Assembly: GCA_012517155.1 (NCBI GenBank)
Contig: JAAYVN010000146.1
Coordinates: 1-37,485 of the forward strand
Source of the DNA: Ignavibacteriales bacterium
GTDB taxonomy: Bacteria > Bacteroidota > Ignavibacteria > Ignavibacteriales > Ignavibacteriaceae
Reading direction: 5' to 3'
Length of the DNA stretch: 37,485 nt
The position numbers were made by a program, and so were the translations under genes. This document shows positions 26,887 to 37,479 of this stretch, piece by piece. The stretch's first letter is position 1. Every line of letters begins with the position of its first letter. The notes below the pieces were generated by a model. It was not told the DNA's origin. It saw nothing but the letters and a program-made list of their open reading frames with translations, and did not search any database.

Positions 26887-29682
26887 TTAGTTGGATTCAA
26901 ATTTTTTCTTTGTCTCTATAACTTTGTAGGCCTCTATTATATCACCGACTTTAATATCGTTGAAATTATAAATACTAAGTCCGCACTCGTATCCTGAATC
27001 AACCTCTCTGACATCATCCTTAAAGCGTTTGAGGGACAATAGTGTGCCATCATAAATTACAATTCCGTTTCTTACGAGACGAATTTTATTACTTCTCGCT
27101 ATTTTTCCTTCAGTAACAAAGCATCCCGCAACCGTACCGATCTTGGATATTTTGAACACATCTCTCACTTCTACAGAAGCTGTGATTTCTTCTGATATAA
27201 TAGGAGATAAAAGTCCTTCAAGAGCAGATTTAACTTCATTAATTGCATCATAAATAATATTATAAAGTCGTATATCAACTTTCTGATTTTCAGCAACTTT
27301 TCTTGCATTTATATTGGGTCTTACGTGAAAGCCAATAATAATAGCATTAGAAGCTGCTGCAAGTAGAACATCACTTTCCGAAATCGCACCTACTCCGCGA
27401 TGAATAACTCTGACGATTACTTCTTCCTTGGATAATTTCATTAGAGAGTCGGCAAGTGCCTCAACAGATCCATCAACATCTCCTTTGACTATAACCGGAA
27501 GTTCCTTAACTCCGCCAATTGAAATTTGCTTCGATATTTCGTCAAGGGTTATATGGTGTACTTGCTTCTGATCCTGCTGACGTTTTAACTGCTGTCGCTT
27601 TGTAGCAATTTCCCTGGCGGCTCGTTCACTCTCCAAAACTACAAATGTATCACCTGCTTGAGGAGCTCCTTCAAAACCAAGCACTAAAACCGGCGTGCAT
27701 GGTCCTGCTTCAGTCATTTTCTTGTTCCTTTCGTCAAACATAGCTCTTACTCTGCCGTAGAATGTCCCGGCTATGAATGGGTCACCTATCCTTAATGTAC
27801 CTTTTTGAACAAGAATCGTTGCTGTTATTCCTCTTCCCTTATCAATTTCGGACTCTATCACAATACCTCTGGCACGCCTGTTGGGATTTGCTCTGAGATC
27901 TAGAAGTTCAGCTTCTAAAAGTACTTTCTCTAGGAGTGTTTGTATATTTGTACCTTGCTTTGCTGAAACCTGTACCGACTGATGTTTACCACCCCAGTCC
28001 TCAACTAGAACTTTTCTGTCGGCTAATTGTTGTTTTATCCTGTCAATATTTGCACCAAGCTTATCAATCTTATTAATGGCAACAATTATGGGTACATTTG
28101 CGGCTTGAGCGTGGCTAATCGCTTCTATAGTCTGAGGCATTACTGCATCATCTGCAGCTACAACCAGAATTACAATATCCGTTACCTGTGCACCTCTGGC
28201 ACGCATAGCTGTAAATGCTTCGTGTCCAGGAGTATCTAGGAAAGTAATGTATTTTTCACCTCCGATACCTACTTTATATGCACCTATGTGCTGAGTTATT
28301 CCTCCGGATTCACCAGCCACTACATTAGTCTTACGGATGTAATCGAGTAATGATGTTTTACCATGGTCAACGTGTCCCATTATAGTAACTACCGGAGACC
28401 TTGGCATTAGTTCTTCTTCAGCATCAGGAGTATCTTCAAGTACTTCGGCGGTGTACTCCTTTTCAAATTCAATTTCATACCCAAACTCATCAGCTACTAG
28501 AGTAATCGTTTCTACATCAAGTCTCTGGTTGATCGAAACCATTAGTCCCAGGGATATGCATTTGGCTATAACCTCGCTAACGCTGACACCCATAAGGTTT
28601 GCTAATTCATTAACAGCTATGTACTCTGTTACATGAAGTCTATTCTCTTCAAGTTTTCTTGTTTCCTGTCTTTTCTCCTCAAGTTCAGCACGTTCTTTCT
28701 TTTTCTTTTTGCGGGATATTGCTCTGCCACTTAATGATGATTCGTCTATACTAAGCAGTGTCTTCCGAATTGCACTTTCAACTTCTTTTTGGTCAATTTC
28801 AAATTTCTTAACCTTCTGTCGCTTTTTTGATGCTGGTGTTTCTTCAGTTGTAACAATTTCCTTTTTTGGTTTTGGCTTTGGTCTCTTTCGCTTTTTAACA
28901 ACCTTTGGGGTTCCTTCTTTCGTTTCAGTATCTGACGGCTTTTCAGTCGAAACCACTTTTGATTCTTCGAGATTTATTTTTCCTAAAACTGTTAATCCCT
29001 TCTTCTTTTTTCTTTCTTCGTCAGCTTCTACAAAATATTTAGCTTTCCCAACATCGGTAGTATCTGTAACTTGTGGAACTTCCACAACCTCGGCCGATTT
29101 AATCTCCTCCTCTTCCTTCTTTGTTTCCTCAACGTGAGCTGCTTGAGGAACCTCTGACTCTTCAGGAACGATTTCAGGTTTTGGGGCTTCCTTTTTCTTT
29201 GTAATCTCAGTTTGAATTGTTTTAATTTCTTCCTGAATCTCCTGTAGTATCTCAGAAGCCTTTGTTTTACCCGAACGCTTTTTAGGCTTTTCTATAAGTA
29301 TTTCTTCCGGTTTTTCAGTCGTCTCAGATCCAACTTTAGCCTCTGGCTCTTCTTCTTTGGATTTGGCCTTCGATGCTTTTTTCGCTGTTTCCTTTGAGAC
29401 TGGAGTCGATTCCTCAACTCCCTTTTTAGGTTTCTCCTCCTTGGGTTCCTTCGCTAGTTTTTTATTGAACTCTTCAAGTTTTTGATAATGCTTCGTTGTT
29501 TTCTCAATCTCTTTCTTAAAGTGGCTATTAATAGCCTCCATCATATCAGTACTAACAACGGAGTTCAAGGTCTTAACTTCGAATCCTTGTTTTTTTAAGA
29601 AGTCAACAATCTGATCAGCGGGAATGTTAATTTCCGCTGCAACTTTTGAAATTCTGACCTTTTTTTCTTTTGCTTCTTCCAT
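26887..29682 (-). CDS. infB: Translation initiation factor IF-2
   Basis: The GTPase that brings initiator tRNA to the 30S subunit. The 931 residues begin with an IF2_N domain (about 5-55, [20 protein letters not shown]). A long low-complexity linker rich in Lys, Glu and Pro follows (about 60-345), then a second IF2_N-type domain (about 347-405) and the GTPase domain with GHVDHGKT near 434-441, DTPGHEAF and NKID. Domains II-IV complete the protein. The charged linker is common in IF-2 and varies between species. It follows nusA after an 84-base gap, in which I see no ylxR-like or L7Ae-like gene as found in many Firmicutes. Confidence 0.97.
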
Positions 29683-29766: not shown

Positions 29767-31011
29767 CTATTCTTCCTCGAATTGGTTTTTAATTATTTGT
29801 ATAATCTCCTCTATCTGTTCATCTGTCAAATCAGGGATCTCTTTTAACTTTTCTGGTCCGGCCTGAAGTACTTCAAGCGCAGTGTCATATCTTGCATCGA
29901 TAAGTAGATTGTAAATATCCTCACCTAGTTCATCTCGCATGTCTATAAGTTCAATATCTTCGTCATACTCTTCAAACGGTTTTTCCTCACGGATCAGATC
30001 TATCTGATAACCGGTAAGTTTCATTGCAAGACGAATATTTACACCATTTCTTCCCACAATTTGTGAAACCTGATCATTGTCAGCATAAACCATTGCTTTG
30101 CGCTCCTTTTGGTTGAGCTCAATTTTTTTAACCTTACCTGGAGCCAGCGCCCGCTGAATATATACCTGTTCATCAGTTGTATAATTAACGATATCTATGT
30201 TCTCATTATTGAGTTCTCTCACAATTGCATGAATTCTTATGCCCTTCATTCCCACACAAGCACCGACTGCGTCTATTCTCTTATCCTGTGATTCAACTGC
30301 CACCTTGGCTTTTTCACCTGGTTCCCTTACAATCCCTTTTATATCAATAATACCATCATAGATCTCTGGAATTTCTATCTCAAAAAGTCTGTGTAGAAAC
30401 ATGTTATCTGCTCTTGATATTATTATCTGTGGTCCCGAAGGTCCTTTTTTCACTTCTTTAACTATTGCTCTTAATGTATCCCCTTTTCTGTATCGTTCGA
30501 ATGGAATCTGCTCTAGCCTTGGAAGCATCAATTCATTTTTATTATGATTAACAAGAATGTCATTCTTTCTTATTTGATAAATATCTCCTATAACTATCTC
30601 ACCTAGTAGATCATTATATTCATTAAATATAATTTCCTTCTCCAGCTCTCTTATTTTCTGATTTAGGTTCTGACGCGCAAGATTAATTAATCTTCTTCCG
30701 AATGATTCAAGTTTTAATTTTTCGTTATATTCCTCACCAACTTCAAGTTCATCTTCGTTACCCGTCTTATTTACTTCATCAATGGATATTTCCGTATCGG
30801 GATTTTCAACTATATCAACTATCATGCGCGAAAGATATATTTCTATATCCCCTCGGTCCATATTGATTACAATATCATAATTAGCATTCTCACCGTATTT
30901 TTTCTTTACGAGTAGCCCGAAAATTTCTTCTATTATGCCAGAAAGAACATCTTTATCCATTCCCTTTTGTTTAACCATTTGCGCAAAAGATTCTACAATC
31001 TCAGCATTCAT
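29767..31011 (-). CDS. nusA: Transcription termination/antitermination factor NusA
   Basis: Binds RNA polymerase and controls pausing, termination and antitermination. The 414 residues show the N-terminal RNAP-binding domain (1-130), an S1 domain (about 137-200), and two KH domains with GACVGMKGIRI (250-260) and IVGRNGVNIRLA (318-329). The tail from about 348 is acidic and helical, with one short repeat-like helical unit instead of the two acidic repeats of Escherichia coli. GGAGG within the end of rimP serves as its ribosome site, and its ATG overlaps the rimP stop (ATGA). It is second in the rimP-nusA-infB-rbfA-truB operon. Confidence 0.96.
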   Translation of the reverse strand: MNAEIVESFAQMVKQKGMDKDVLSGIIEEIFGLLVKKKYGENANYDIVINMDRGDIEIYLSRMIVDIVENPDTEISIDEVNKTGNEDELEVGEEYNEKLKLESFGRRLINLARQNLNQKIRELEKEIIFNEYNDLLGEIVIGDIYQIRKNDILVNHNKNELMLPRLEQIPFERYRKGDTLRAIVKEVKKGPSGPQIIISRADNMFLHRLFEIEIPEIYDGIIDIKGIVREPGEKAKVAVESQDKRIDAVGACVGMKGIRIHAIVRELNNENIDIVNYTTDEQVYIQRALAPGKVKKIELNQKERKAMVYADNDQVSQIVGRNGVNIRLAMKLTGYQIDLIREEKPFEEYDEDIELIDMRDELGEDIYNLLIDARYDTALEVLQAGPEKLKEIPDLTDEQIEEIIQIIKNQFEEE

Positions 31012-31508
31012 TTTTTTCCTCCGTCAGAAAATGTTATTAAAACTTTAGCAGTTTGAATATTTTCAAATTTAACCGGATATTCAGAATCCTTTTCCTTGAA
31101 AATAAGATTATCTCCGTCTATAGATATTAACTTTCCGGTTATTTTCTTTTTATCGGAATTGTCATCCCTGAGAATAACTTCAAAATTCCTGTTTAGATGT
31201 TTTTTATATTGCTTTAGAAATCTTAGCGGTCTGTCAGTACCCGGTGAAGAAACATCAAGTCTGAATGTACCTTTAACAATATCTTCCTGTTCAATTTCAT
31301 CCACAATAAGTCTTGAGATTGTCGCACAATCCTCAACAGACATGTGATCTTCTCTGTCTATAAAAACCTCTATTACTAAATTCCCTTCTCTTCCTCTGAA
31401 AACAACATCGATTAACATGCCGTCATTATCAGAGGAAATTCTCTCACAGATATTGAAAATTTCTTTCTCTACAACTCCAAAAGTTCGGTTTTCTTGATTT
31501 TTAACCAT
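31008..31508 (-). CDS. rimP: Ribosome maturation factor RimP
   Basis: A 30S maturation factor of 166 residues. Family features are the N-terminal GMLIDVVFRGREGNLVIEVF stretch near 30-50, the DHMSVEDCATISRLI segment near 57-71 and LDVSSPGTDRPL near 104-115, followed by an Sm-like C-terminal half. No Shine-Dalgarno sequence precedes the ATG (TTAATTAAA). It is the first gene of its operon, preceded within 50 bases by a promoter match and a terminator-like hairpin. The final codons (GGA GGA AAA AAA TGA) form the ribosome site of nusA. Confidence 0.93.
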   Translation of the reverse strand: MVKNQENRTFGVVEKEIFNICERISSDNDGMLIDVVFRGREGNLVIEVFIDREDHMSVEDCATISRLIVDEIEQEDIVKGTFRLDVSSPGTDRPLRFLKQYKKHLNRNFEVILRDDNSDKKKITGKLISIDGDNLIFKEKDSEYPVKFENIQTAKVLITFSDGGKK

Positions 31509-31528
31509 TTTAATTAATTAAATTAAAT

Positions 31529-31548
31529 AAAAAACGCCCTAACGGGCG
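31529..31548 (-). terminator. Terminator-like hairpin in the rimP leader (candidate attenuator)
   Basis: Read on the minus strand, CGCCC-GTTA-GGGCG forms a compact 5-bp GC stem with a 4-nt loop, followed at once by six T. This is the form of a rho-independent terminator, but it lies between the rimP promoter candidate and the rimP ATG, 20 bases before the ATG, and no minus-strand gene lies upstream in this divergent gap. It could therefore attenuate the operon. On the plus strand it has no T run. Its very early position in the transcript (about 10 nt from the presumed start) is a reservation. Confidence 0.55.
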
Positions 31549-31560
31549 AAAACAGATATC

Positions 31561-31592
31561 CAAATGTATCGAAATTTTATGGAATTTACAAG
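31561..31592 (-). promoter_or_regulatory. Bacteroidota-type promoter for rimP-nusA-infB-rbfA-truB
   Basis: On the minus strand, CTTG (31592-31589), a 20-nt spacer and TACATTTG (31568-31561) fit the TTTG / TAnnTTTG consensus with one mismatch in the -33 element. Transcription would start near 31555, about 47 bases before the rimP ATG. Confidence 0.55.
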
Positions 31593-31613
31593 AAAATAAA
31601 TTTGTAATTCCAT
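31579..31613. repeat. Inverted repeat overlapping the rimP promoter
   Basis: ATGGAATT at 31579-31586 pairs with AATTCCAT at 31606-31613, and after a one-base bulge ACAA pairs with TTGT. A further outer pair GTATC (31566-31570) and GATAC (31615-31619) flanks it. The repeat covers the -33 element and most of the spacer, as expected of a repressor site; a regulator for it is not known. Confidence 0.4.
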
Positions 31614-31770: not shown

Positions 31771-34029
31771 ATGACAGCAAATATTGACATGATCAAAGAA
31801 GTTTACTCTAATTACAGGCGGAAAGTAGAAAAAATAAGACTACTTTTAGGACGCCCGTTGACCTTTACCGAAAAAGTCCTTTATTCCCATTTATTTGAAG
31901 CCCCCACGCAAGTTTTCAAACGAGGAATTGATTTTGCGGATTTTGCTCCGGATAGGGTTGCCATGCAAGATGCTACTGCTCAAATGGCTTTACTGCAATT
32001 CATAAGTTCCGGAAAACCAAGAACCGCCGCACCTACAACAGTTCATTGTGATCATCTTATCCAGGCTAAGGTAGGAGCAAAGGACGATTTGCTAAGAGCA
32101 AAAGATGAAAATAAAGAAGTATTTGATTTTCTTGAAAGTGTTAGCAGGAAGTATGGAATCGGCTTCTGGAAACCCGGTGCCGGTATAATTCATCAAGTTG
32201 TTTTGGAAAATTATGCCTTCCCCGGAGGAATGATGATCGGTACAGATTCACATACTCCGAACGCTGGGGGTTTAGCAATGATTGCCATTGGAGTTGGTGG
32301 CGCTGATGCTGTGGATGTTATGGCAGGACTTCCATGGGAATTGAAAATGCCTAAGTTAATTGGTGTTCACTTGACAGGAAAACTTTCTGGTTGGGCTTCC
32401 CCTAAAGATGTGATTTTGAAATTAGCAGGAATCCTTTCTGTTAAAGGTGGAACAGGATTTATTGTACAGTACTTTGGAGATGGTGCTAAATCAATATCAG
32501 CAACTGGTAAAGGCACTATTTGCAATATGGGTGCCGAAATTGGTGCAACCACATCCGTTTTTGCTTATGATGAAAAGATGGCTGAATATTTGACTGCTAC
32601 TGGGAGAAAAGATGTGGCTGAAATGGCTTCTGAAATCAGAGATATTCTTGCAGATGATCCGGAAATAATTAATTCACCGGAAAAATATTTTGATAAAATC
32701 ATTGAAATAAATCTCTCTGAACTCGAACCTCATGTTAATGGTCCCTTTACTCCTGATCTCGCCTATCCCATTTCTGAATTGAAAAAAGCGGTAACCGAAA
32801 AAGGCTACCCTGATAAAGTGAGCGTGGCTTTAATAGGAAGTTGTACAAATTCCAGCTATGAGGATATTGATAGAGCTTCAAGTATTGCTAAACAAGCGCT
32901 AACAAAAAAATTAAAATCAAAAGCTCAGTTTACAATTACACCTGGCTCTGAACAAGTTAGAGCTACTATAGAACGTGATGGCCAACTTAAAATTCTTGAG
33001 GAAATTGGTGGTGTCGTACTTGCTAACGCATGCGGACCTTGTATAGGAATGTGGAAACGAATGGATGTGAAAACAGGTGAGAAAAATACAATCGTAACTT
33101 CATTCAACCGTAATTTCGCCAAAAGAAATGACGGTAACCCGGAAACTTATGCCTTTGTTGCTGGACCCGAAATAACAACAGCTTTTGCTATTGCCGGTTC
33201 TCTTTCATTTAACCCCATTACTGATTCTTTAGTTAACGAAGATGGTGTTAAAGTCAAATTAGATCCACCGGTCGGGGCTGAACTCCCCTCATTAGGTTTC
33301 AAATCGGATTCGGATGTGTTTATTCCCCCCTCCTCTGATCATAAGGACATTAAGATAACCATTGATCCTAAAAGCGATAGACTCCAACTCCTCGCTCCTT
33401 TCCACAGATGGGATGGAAAGGATTTTGAAAAACTTCCATTGCTGGTAAAGATTAAAGGCAAATGTACAACCGATCATATTTCAATGGCTGGTCCTTGGTT
33501 GAAGTATCGCGGGCATCTTGATAATATATCTGATAACATGTTTTTAGGGGCTGTAAATGCTTTTACTAACGAAGCCGGAAAAACTAAAAACACTTTCACA
33601 AATGAGTATAAGTCTATCCCTGAAGTGGCCCGCGAATATAAAGCTATGAATGTGAACTGGGTTGTTGTGGGTGACGAAAACTATGGCGAGGGCTCAAGTA
33701 GAGAACATGCTGCTCTTGAACCAAGATTTCTAGGCGGTAGAATTATTATCGTTAAAAGTTTTGCCAGAATTCACGAAACTAATCTCAAAAAACAAGGAAT
33801 GTTACCTCTTACTTTTATTAATCCTTCAGATTTTGATAAAATATTAGAGGATGATTTGATTTCTATCTACGGATTAACTGATTTTACTGAGGGTAAGCCT
33901 CTAAAAATGGTTATTCATCATAATGATAATTCTGTGGAGGATTTTTTACTAAATCATTCTTTCAATAACCGTCAGATTGAATGGTTTAAAGCAGGTAGTG
34001 CTCTCAATTTAATTAGCGTAAATAGTTAA
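31771..34029 (+). CDS. acn: Aconitate hydratase, mitochondrial-type
   Basis: Interconverts citrate and isocitrate in the TCA cycle with a [4Fe-4S] cluster. The 752 residues are close in length to mitochondrial aconitase and distinct from the longer bacterial AcnA/IRP1 type and from AcnB. The cluster ligands are Cys358 in GSCTNSS and Cys421 and Cys424 in [10 protein letters not shown], the same numbers as the pig heart enzyme. HCDH lies at 92-95 and GTDSHTPN at 157-164. The swivel domain includes [19 protein letters not shown] near 635. AGAGG 7 bases before the ATG supports the start. It stands alone on the plus strand, divergent from rimP, and its end overlaps the histidine kinase gene by 21 bases. 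Confidence 0.95.
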
Positions 34030-37000
34030 CTTTCTGAGACTTTTTTCAATTGCTTCCTTAAAAACATTCAGATTTACTGGTTTTGCAAATGCATAAGTAA
34101 TCCCGATATCTTCAAAGGCAAGCTTTTCGCTTTTTCCGAGGAAGTCGCTTAGAACAATTACTTGCGGCTTCCCTTTTATATCAGATTCCATTAATCTTCT
34201 AATAAAATCATATCCGGTCATTTCTGGCATATTATGGTCTGTAACTACTAACGCAGGGGAAATCTCTGCGATTAACTTAAGTGCATCTTCCCCATTACTT
34301 GCTGTTACTACATTATATTCGGGAATAATATTCCGCAGAATTTTTGAATAAAGTATCCTGTCTGTATTATTATCATCCACTAACAAAATAGTTGCTGATG
34401 CTATTGGAATTAAAAATCTGAATGAACTTCCTTCGTTTCTTCTGCTTTCAACCCAAATTTTTCCGCCATGCCGTTCAATAATCTCTCTCACAAGTGATAA
34501 TCCTAAACCACTTCCCCTTTCACCCCCCGTTCCCTCGGTTGTAAATTTAGAGTCTACTTGGAATATCTTTGAAAGATTCTCCTCCGGAATTCCCACTCCC
34601 GTATCTGTTACACTCACCTCCAGGAATCTGGCTTGTGAAGATTGCTGTGACGTTATAACAATCTTTCCCCCCGGATTTGTAAATTTTAATGCGTTGGACA
34701 TAAGATTATTTATTGCCTGTAATATGAGGTTTGAGTCAATAAATACATATTCCTCACCTTGAATCTCGCTTACTAATTCTATCTCTTTCTTAATCGCCAT
34801 CCCCCTCATCGATACTATAGCTTTTTCTATTACCTTAGAAAATTCCGTTTTCGCTGGTTTAAACTCTATCCTGCCCGTCTGAAGCCTTGTCCAGTCAAGA
34901 AGACTATTAACAAGCGAAAGCATATTCTGAGAGGATTCCCGTATATATTTTACATACTCTCGAATCTCTTCCGCAGAAAGTTCATTATCTTGTAAAACTA
35001 GATCTGTAAAACCCAGAATAGAACTGAACGGGGTTCTAAGATCATGTGAAATTATTGATATAAAACGGTCTTTAGTGTCGTTCAATTTTTTCAGATTATC
35101 GGTGGTTTGCTTTAATTCTGCCAGATTTTTCTTCTGTATTGATACATCCCCCACTAATCCATAAATTTTTTGAATGACTCCGTCAAGACTCCTTACAGAT
35201 TTAATTTTATTCTTTACCCAGACTACACTCCCGTCTTTTTTTATAATACGGTATTCTATTTCTTCGGAATTCTTATAAAAATTATATTTAAACGCTTTTA
35301 GCTTATTCTTGAATTCTGTAAAGTCATCGGGATAAATAATTCTTATAAATAGTCTTCTGTCAGTTAAAAAATCAGATTGTGAATATCCGGTAATTTTCTC
35401 AACAGATGCTGTGAAAAATACAAAAGTCAGCCATGTATCTCCTCTCTCCATTGTATAGAAGAAATCTTCAATATTTTCTGCAATGCTTCTGTATTTTTCT
35501 TCAGAATCCTGTATAACAAGTTGAGTTCGTTTTCGTTCAGTAATATCTCTGGCAATAATAATACTATGATCGCAATTATTAAATTCAGTCATCGTAAATG
35601 AAATTTCTGCAAAAAATTTGCTTCCGTCTTTTCTTATTGCAATAAATTCGTGTGTCGCTGCTATATCCTTCTTCAAATTTGTCAACTCTGATAGCTTCTC
35701 GACTTTTTGCATATCATTTTGATCAACAAATGAAATAGTTGGCAATCCAACCAAATCCTCAACCGCAGAATATCCGAATAGTTTAGCAAATGATTCATTC
35801 GCCATAATAAAAGCTCCTTGGCAGGCCACTGCTATTCCATCATTTGAAGCTTCAAATACTTTTCTCATCATCAACAATTCATTTTCGGCAGTCTTCTTCT
35901 CAGTTATGTCAATAAATATTCCACTTATCGTAACACTTCCGTCAATTGATGGTTTTGAAGCAGCAAAACTGGCTAGTAGAATTATCGTCTTCCCTTCCCT
36001 GTTTTTGAAAGGAAGTTCAAGACTCCTGTGTGAAGACTCAATAATATCTTGCAAAGTAAACTTTTTCGTTTTTATGAATTCTGCATCCATAAAATCCAGA
36101 ATACTCATTTCCTTCACTTCGGAATCAATATAACCTAAAGTCTCAATAAAAGCATTATTGGCAAAACTGATTCTGCCATTTTCACTAAAATTGCATATAA
36201 GTTCAGCTGTGTTTTCAACAATATTTCTTAATCTCTCTTCCGATTCTTTTAAGTATCTCTCGTTCTCCTCCTTCTCTGTAATATCATTACACCTGACGAT
36301 TAACTTCTTATCATCATTGTCACTAATTAGGTTAAATGTAAACTCCCCTATCTTCTGATTTCCTTTTTTGTTTCTATAATCGAGTTTTAAGTGGAAATCC
36401 CCTCTTTTTTCTGTCTCATTTAGAATTTTCTCTAAAAAATCACTTTCCCATACTTTAATAACTTGCCCGAATTTTTTCCCGAATACTTGACTGCGTTTAA
36501 ATCCAAATAGCAAATCGGCCCCTTCATTCCAGATAACGATACAACCTTTGGTATCAATCCCAACAATAGCATCTGATATTGCTTCATTTATAACCCTGTA
36601 TAAATTAAGCTCCTCAATTATTTTTTGATATGAATTAATTGTCGCTTGAATATCATTTATATTACTTAAATATACCAGATAACCGGATATCTTTGTTCCT
36701 CCCCCTCTTAATCCTGCTACTCGCGTTTCATATACTCTTCTTTGCTTTTCACTCTTTAGGAAAAACTTGATCCTTATTTCCTCACGGGAAGCCTTTTTTA
36801 ATCCGGTCATTACACTATTCCATACTTCTTCTTTTAAAAGTGTGGATAAAAGCATATTGTTTTCTGGTTGGATATCTTTTTTCTTTAGAAGTGAGAGTTC
36901 AGATCCGGAAATATACTGAATCCTGTAGTGATTATCTGTTACTATGAATAGTGCGTTATTCCTTTCCACAATTCCTTCAAAGAACCTTTTGTCAAAGATC

Positions 37001-37479
37001 CGCGAATTTGCCTTTAAATCATTCAGTAATCTGATATCCTCCACTAACAGAATTCCACCCGCAAAAATATCCTCACTTAATAATGGCGCTCCCTTGATTA
37101 TTACTGAAACATCGTCTCCCAGCACCCCGGGTATATTCCTGATAATCTTTTCAAAACCCTTCCCCTTTCTTAGTGCAAGTAAGTCTTCAGTAAGCGATAT
37201 TTCCGTAAACACTCTCCCTTTTAACATATTTACTTTATAATTATTCGGAACTATCTCAGAACTTAAAACTCCGAACTTGAACATAATATTGTTCAAAAAT
37301 AGCACGTTATAATCCTGATCAAATACAAGAATACCCGCAGGCGCTTCCTGTATGTATTCTGATAACCTCTTTTCATTTTTTATCGTATTCTTACTCATAT
37401 CATTTATCTGATTAAGTACCAAGCTGGTTGATGATCTCACTATAGATCTTATCGGTTGCTCCAATATTCGAAAAGACAT
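34009..37479 (-). CDS. Multi-PAS hybrid sensor histidine kinase with receiver domain (5' end may lie outside)
   Basis: A signalling kinase of at least 1156 residues. I count six PAS-like segments (about 41-150, 165-275, 292-400, 412-525, 538-650, 660-780), several ending in the DITE(K/R)K motif. Then come a HisKA domain with SHDLRTP (phospho-accepting His812), an ATPase domain with the N box NNLMSNA (924-930), DTGVGIP (959-965) and GSGLGLSL (989-996), and a C-terminal receiver with the DD pair at 1035-1036, Asp1081 and Lys1133. No DNA-binding output is attached. The frame remains open through the last six bases of the window, and the first 30 residues look like the middle of a linker rather than a fresh start, so an upstream sensor or membrane part is likely. 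The signal is unknown. Confidence 0.9.

Follow-up and report, generated by a model that had tools for sequence, protein, structure and literature searches.

The rimP-nusA-infB operon carries a hairpin and T run next to its promoter

The window, by which we mean the whole stretch of 37,485 nucleotides analysed, carries a rimP-nusA-infB operon on the minus strand and, divergent from it, an aconitase gene. The identities of RimP and NusA are backed by family searches. The features are as follows:

26887..29682, minus strand: infB (IF2)-like ORF (ORF list; identity from the original prediction and our reading of the sequence)
29767..31011, minus strand: nusA (TIGR01953 above cut-off)
31008..31508, minus strand: rimP (ORF list and family search; ATG at 31508-31506)
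31529..31534, minus strand: T6 run TTTTTT, directly after the hairpin; predicted termination zone at about +23 to +28
31535..31548, minus strand: hairpin CGCCC-GTTA-GGGCG, 5 G-C pairs and a 4-nt loop; predicted positions +9 to +22
31556..31557, minus strand: predicted transcription start, placed by the box position in F. psychrophilum (PMC9723704)
31561..31568, minus strand: –7 promoter box TACATTTG (TAnnTTTG type), read from the sequence and conserved
31589..31592, minus strand: –33-like promoter element CTTG, read from the sequence; TTG is common at this distance in relatives
31771-34029, plus strand: aconitase gene, divergent from rimP (ORF list)
34009-37479, minus strand: PAS histidine kinase gene (ORF list)

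The original prediction placed a GC-rich hairpin followed by six T ahead of the rimP start, and such an element is present on the minus strand (31548-31529, with rimP beginning at 31508). The gap had also been described as divergent, with no minus-strand gene upstream that would need a terminator there; indeed, the next gene on that strand is the histidine kinase gene, which ends at 34009. The aconitase and histidine kinase genes converge and share their last 21 bases (34009-34029). The promoter that had been meant is probably the pair of CTTG and TACATTTG, which agrees with the end at 31592 given for the region and is itself conserved. A site from a sigma-70 scan (31669-31641) is a separate, weak match.

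The type of promoter suggests that the genome belongs to Bacteroidota in the broad sense. Boxes of the TAnnTTTG type occupy positions –12 to –5 in F. psychrophilum (PMC9723704). By this measure transcription would start at about 31556, upstream of the hairpin and not inside or downstream of it. The RNA would then be about 28–29 nt long at the end of the T run, and since the rimP ATG lies 20 nt past that end (31529 to 31508), the predicted leader is 48–49 nt. Its predicted fold contains the hairpin and a weak AT stem only (–11.3 kcal/mol, z –2.77). An AT-rich inverted repeat, ATGGAATTTACAA..TTGTAATTCCAT, with GTATC/GATAC flanks (31579-31613), overlaps the –33 element; no repeat resembling it was noticed when upstream regions of relatives were inspected by eye.

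A single copy of the hairpin is near chance expectation: a consensus scan of 2 kb found 2 sites that resemble terminators, where shuffled sequences gave 1.2 ± 1.1. In a control set of 143 ORFs with a length of 150 aa or more, drawn from 261 kb of the same genome, 12 have any upstream hairpin with a T run (searched between 130 nt before and 20 nt after the ORF start), and rimP alone has one 6–25 nt after a TAnnTTTG box.

The element is nearly invariant within the order

A search of the 79 genomes of the same family or order, own genome included, found RimP in 78. The pattern GCCC-loop-GGGC followed by a T run is present upstream of rimP at every one of these loci (78/78), so that an element unconvincing as a lone copy is, given its conservation, real. 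Loss of the hairpin in close relatives, which would have spoken against the prediction, was not seen. A strict finder recovered it in 72/78 real upstream regions versus a mean of 0.8/78 in shuffled ones, the gap between 72 and 78 being due to misassigned start codons in several loci. The T run is conserved as well: T occupies the first four positions in 78/78 loci and the fifth in 77/78, after which comes A or G in 72/78 and then TT in 78/78. The distance between GCCC and GGGC varies from 4 to 10 nt. The pair immediately outward of them is C-G in 74 loci, T-A in 3 and A-A in 1, and the inner pair is formed in 36/78 loci (shuffle mean 28.7, max 40). Thus, within the order the stem is kept in sequence, beyond pairing alone. 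Because it does not vary, it carries little information on covariation, which is accordingly weak at this level.

The promoter box is conserved as well. A strict TAnnTTTG box ends 9–14 nt before the stem in 46/78 loci (base-shuffle mean 0.7, max 6), looser boxes of this kind occur in 30 more, and in most of the 78 loci TTG starts 42–46 nt upstream of GCCC, commonly about 43–44 nt. Counted from the predicted start through the last T of the five-T run, the RNA would measure 28–30 nt in 42 of the 46 loci with a strict box. This near-fixed distance downstream of a conserved promoter box, together with the divergent gap in the window, led us to reject a terminator of an upstream gene.

A genome-wide repeat was rejected too: in the 79 genomes, 59 of 64 strict-motif places (in 62 genomes) are at rimP, as matched by eye, and 5 are elsewhere, versus 0 places in the reversed control. 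The five are G002:C181, G031:C121, G034:C2, G059:C36 and G068:C1:2389579. A relaxed motif has 5 places in the window's own genome, 1 of them at rimP. No multi-gene regulon was seen with the window-type stem sequence.

Outside the order the pairing persists while the stem sequence is replaced

For the rest of the class and phylum, 94 loci were picked by hand among the matches listed, with at least one for each family sampled (243 of 247 genomes matched; families f16 and f22 left out). A hairpin with a T run was found at rimP in 30/32 loci from other orders of the class (shuffle mean 1.2) and in 59/62 loci from other classes (shuffle mean 3.5). These counts come from a finder that makes no demand for promoter proximity and was loosened (score 18) after the missed rows had been viewed; its strict form gave 27/32 and 40/62 (shuffles 0.75 and 1.4). 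A further set of 20 loci, 19 of them assessed and most from other families, yielded 17/19 with the element (shuffle mean 1.3). At one locus of this set, L238, the matching hairpin follows a stretch that resembles a tRNA and is not clearly a leader hairpin.

Stems are clade-specific, e.g. ATAGCCCG/CGGGCTAT, ATGGGC/GCCCAT, GTCCCGC/GCGGGAC, AAGTGGGG/CCCCACTT and GAGGGGAC/GTCCCCTC. They differ between clades yet still pair, so pairing persists and sequence is replaced. The covariation proposed as a check therefore gave a mixed answer, weak within the order but with pairing kept between orders and classes.

These comparisons bear on two other uses of the hairpin. It might be part of the 5' end of the mRNA, protecting it from decay or tuning translation start, and in 39/78 loci a constant 13 nt indeed separates the stem core from the first ATG. 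However, the T run is kept at other distances too, with 10 to 34 nt from stem core to first ATG and up to about 100 nt in other clades, and we regard this role as very improbable. Alternatively, the inverted repeat could be a DNA operator for a repressor, given that it adjoins the promoter and that its half-sites are invariant within the order. But half-site spacing ranges from 4 to 10 nt, the half-sites differ between families, and the T run is conserved, which leaves an operator scarcely credible.

The element follows nusA where rimP is missing

Family f11 as a whole (e.g. L227-L229) appears, from the sequences at hand, to have no RimP: a profile search of three whole genomes matched in 0/3, and there was no RimP profile match upstream of nusA in 28/28 loci. 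A hairpin with a T run nevertheless precedes nusA in 27/29 assessable loci of this family when 220 nt are searched (21/28 before widening; one more locus was too short, and one of the two misses, L272, seems to have been anchored at the wrong place). A strict TAnnTTTG box stands just before the element in 26 of these loci (shuffle mean 0.4, max 2). The stem is usually GGGC..GCCC, the polarity described by Naville and Gautheret. An element that stands before nusA in the absence of rimP goes with nusA and not with rimP, which makes RimP less likely as the regulator.

Family f13 is more varied. Both of the loci read there (G224 and G265) have rimP without the element, and the hairpin with a T run directly precedes nusA in 6/13 loci. 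The rimP-like gene of G224 lies on a separate contig and is without the hairpin. In genus g67 of this family (L226, L287-L289, L291-L293) nusA has no rimP upstream and the hairpin is found in 1/7 loci, so the element can be lost.

Comparison with known leaders of the nusA operon

Leader termination at the nusA operon, coupled to feedback by NusA, is a known kind of control (PMC12288461, PMC4448216, PMC2965389). In B. subtilis, NusA stimulates termination in its own leader and thereby autoregulates (PMC12288461). The shared feature is a leader terminator at the nusA operon; NusA feedback has been demonstrated there and is predicted here, the phylum is another, and the rimP leader of B. subtilis measures about 180 nt (PMC2965389). 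A closer match in size comes from S. agalactiae, where the rimP-nusA-infB operon (gbs0413-gbs0418) gives a short RNA and a long mRNA from a common start, with termination 31 nt downstream, and where NusA feedback has been proposed (PMC4448216). Both leaders have an intrinsic terminator in the same operon, at 31 nt in S. agalactiae versus a predicted 28–30 nt here, but the former value is an RNA-seq measurement and the latter a prediction, and promoter type and phylum differ. In E. coli, transcripts of the nusA operon go up when NusA termination is reduced (PMC6511841).

Among genes with predicted attenuation rimP is the most frequent, and rimP-leaders have been predicted widely (Naville and Gautheret, PMC2965389; RF01770). 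Like them, the element is a short conserved hairpin with a T run before rimP, lies within 4–130 nt of the first gene and has no visible antiterminator, and NusA was proposed as the factor in that work too. The stem, in contrast, is inverted: the general rimP-leader motif is GGGc..gCCC, as opposed to GCCC..GGGC in 78/78 loci of the order. The RF01770 covariance model had 0 matches in the window's own genome (E. coli was the sole match among 14 controls), a search of 20 phylum loci against Rfam returned no rimP-leader match, and no cis-regulatory Rfam family reached the gathering score. Matches below threshold were weak; the best, mir-786, fell on an AT-rich repeat of the plus strand and was taken as chance.

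On leaders of rimP or attenuation of the nusA operon in Bacteroidetes or Flavobacteria, our literature search found one report within the phylum, of a structured 5' element of rimP in Flavobacteriaceae (PMC9723704). That element shares the operon, the promoter type and the lack of an Rfam match with ours and, in the portion of the report available to us, is given without structure or mechanism. What the present comparison adds, and what was absent from the literature searched, is the invariance across an order, the spread across the phylum with clade-specific stems, the geometry of about 29 nt, and the tracking of nusA without rimP.

A candidate attenuator of the nusA operon

As in a NusA-controlled attenuator, the hairpin and T run lie between the promoter and the first gene of the nusA operon. 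The original prediction proposed an autoregulatory attenuation loop. Its first part, an attenuation element, is strongly supported at the level of sequence by conservation, promoter-proximal position and tracking of nusA, all of them shown by comparison of genomes; its second part, feedback by NusA, is plausible by precedent. We consider it probable that the element is a minimal, weak intrinsic terminator that attenuates the nusA operon under NusA feedback, a reading in which termination, start site and NusA signal are inferred. RNA polymerase would meet the terminator about 23–28 nt after the start; a share of transcripts would end as an RNA of about 28–30 nt, and the remainder would read through into rimP-nusA-infB. 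There is almost no RNA upstream of the hairpin and hence no room for an antiterminator or riboswitch, so control must act on the polymerase. The best-placed factor would be one able to bind both polymerase and hairpin; NusA, a product of this operon, is such a factor. The most likely signal would be NusA itself: more NusA would mean more pausing and termination, lowering its own operon. By analogy with the known leaders, the predicted attenuator may thus depend on NusA. Against an attenuator, terminator stems tend to be longer than 5 pairs, and termination might fail in early complexes from which sigma has yet to depart. The weak covariation within the order and the broken pattern in family f13 also count against it.

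The same short RNA would suit a constitutive weak terminator that cuts operon expression by a fixed fraction, unregulated by NusA or anything else, since about 30 nt fits no sensor, antiterminator or alternative pairing. However, that the nusA operon in particular keeps the element throughout the phylum suggests more than this, and promoter strength could supply a fixed throttle; we see a constitutive terminator as unlikely. Less likely still is a hairpin-stabilised promoter-proximal pause that does not terminate and serves e.g. to set the moment at which NusA loads or sigma is released. Action on hairpin pauses is an established property of NusA; this, the position at about +28 and the interruption of the T run by a purine (A or G, 72/78) would all suit a pause. 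But the T run is almost invariant, although pausing alone does not need it, and the S. agalactiae counterpart releases its RNA (PMC4448216).

A broader and more speculative picture can be entertained, which we offer tentatively as a possibility with the balance against it. The element might be an ancient, near-universal NusA homeostat and the shortest attenuator that could work: a sensor-free terminator at about +29, where sigma leaves and NusA first binds, through which the polymerase would count NusA. Such a device would have outlasted the loss of rimP and complete turnover of the stem, and its geometry would recur in Firmicutes (+31).

Neither E. coli nor B. subtilis can live without NusA (PMC12288461), and for bacteria other than Firmicutes and Gammaproteobacteria our literature search found little on what sets the level of this factor. 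No test of direct NusA feedback could be simpler than a leader of about 30 nt whose sole component is a terminator, and natural variants for comparison already exist across the phylum (different stems, rimP lost, the element lost in g67).
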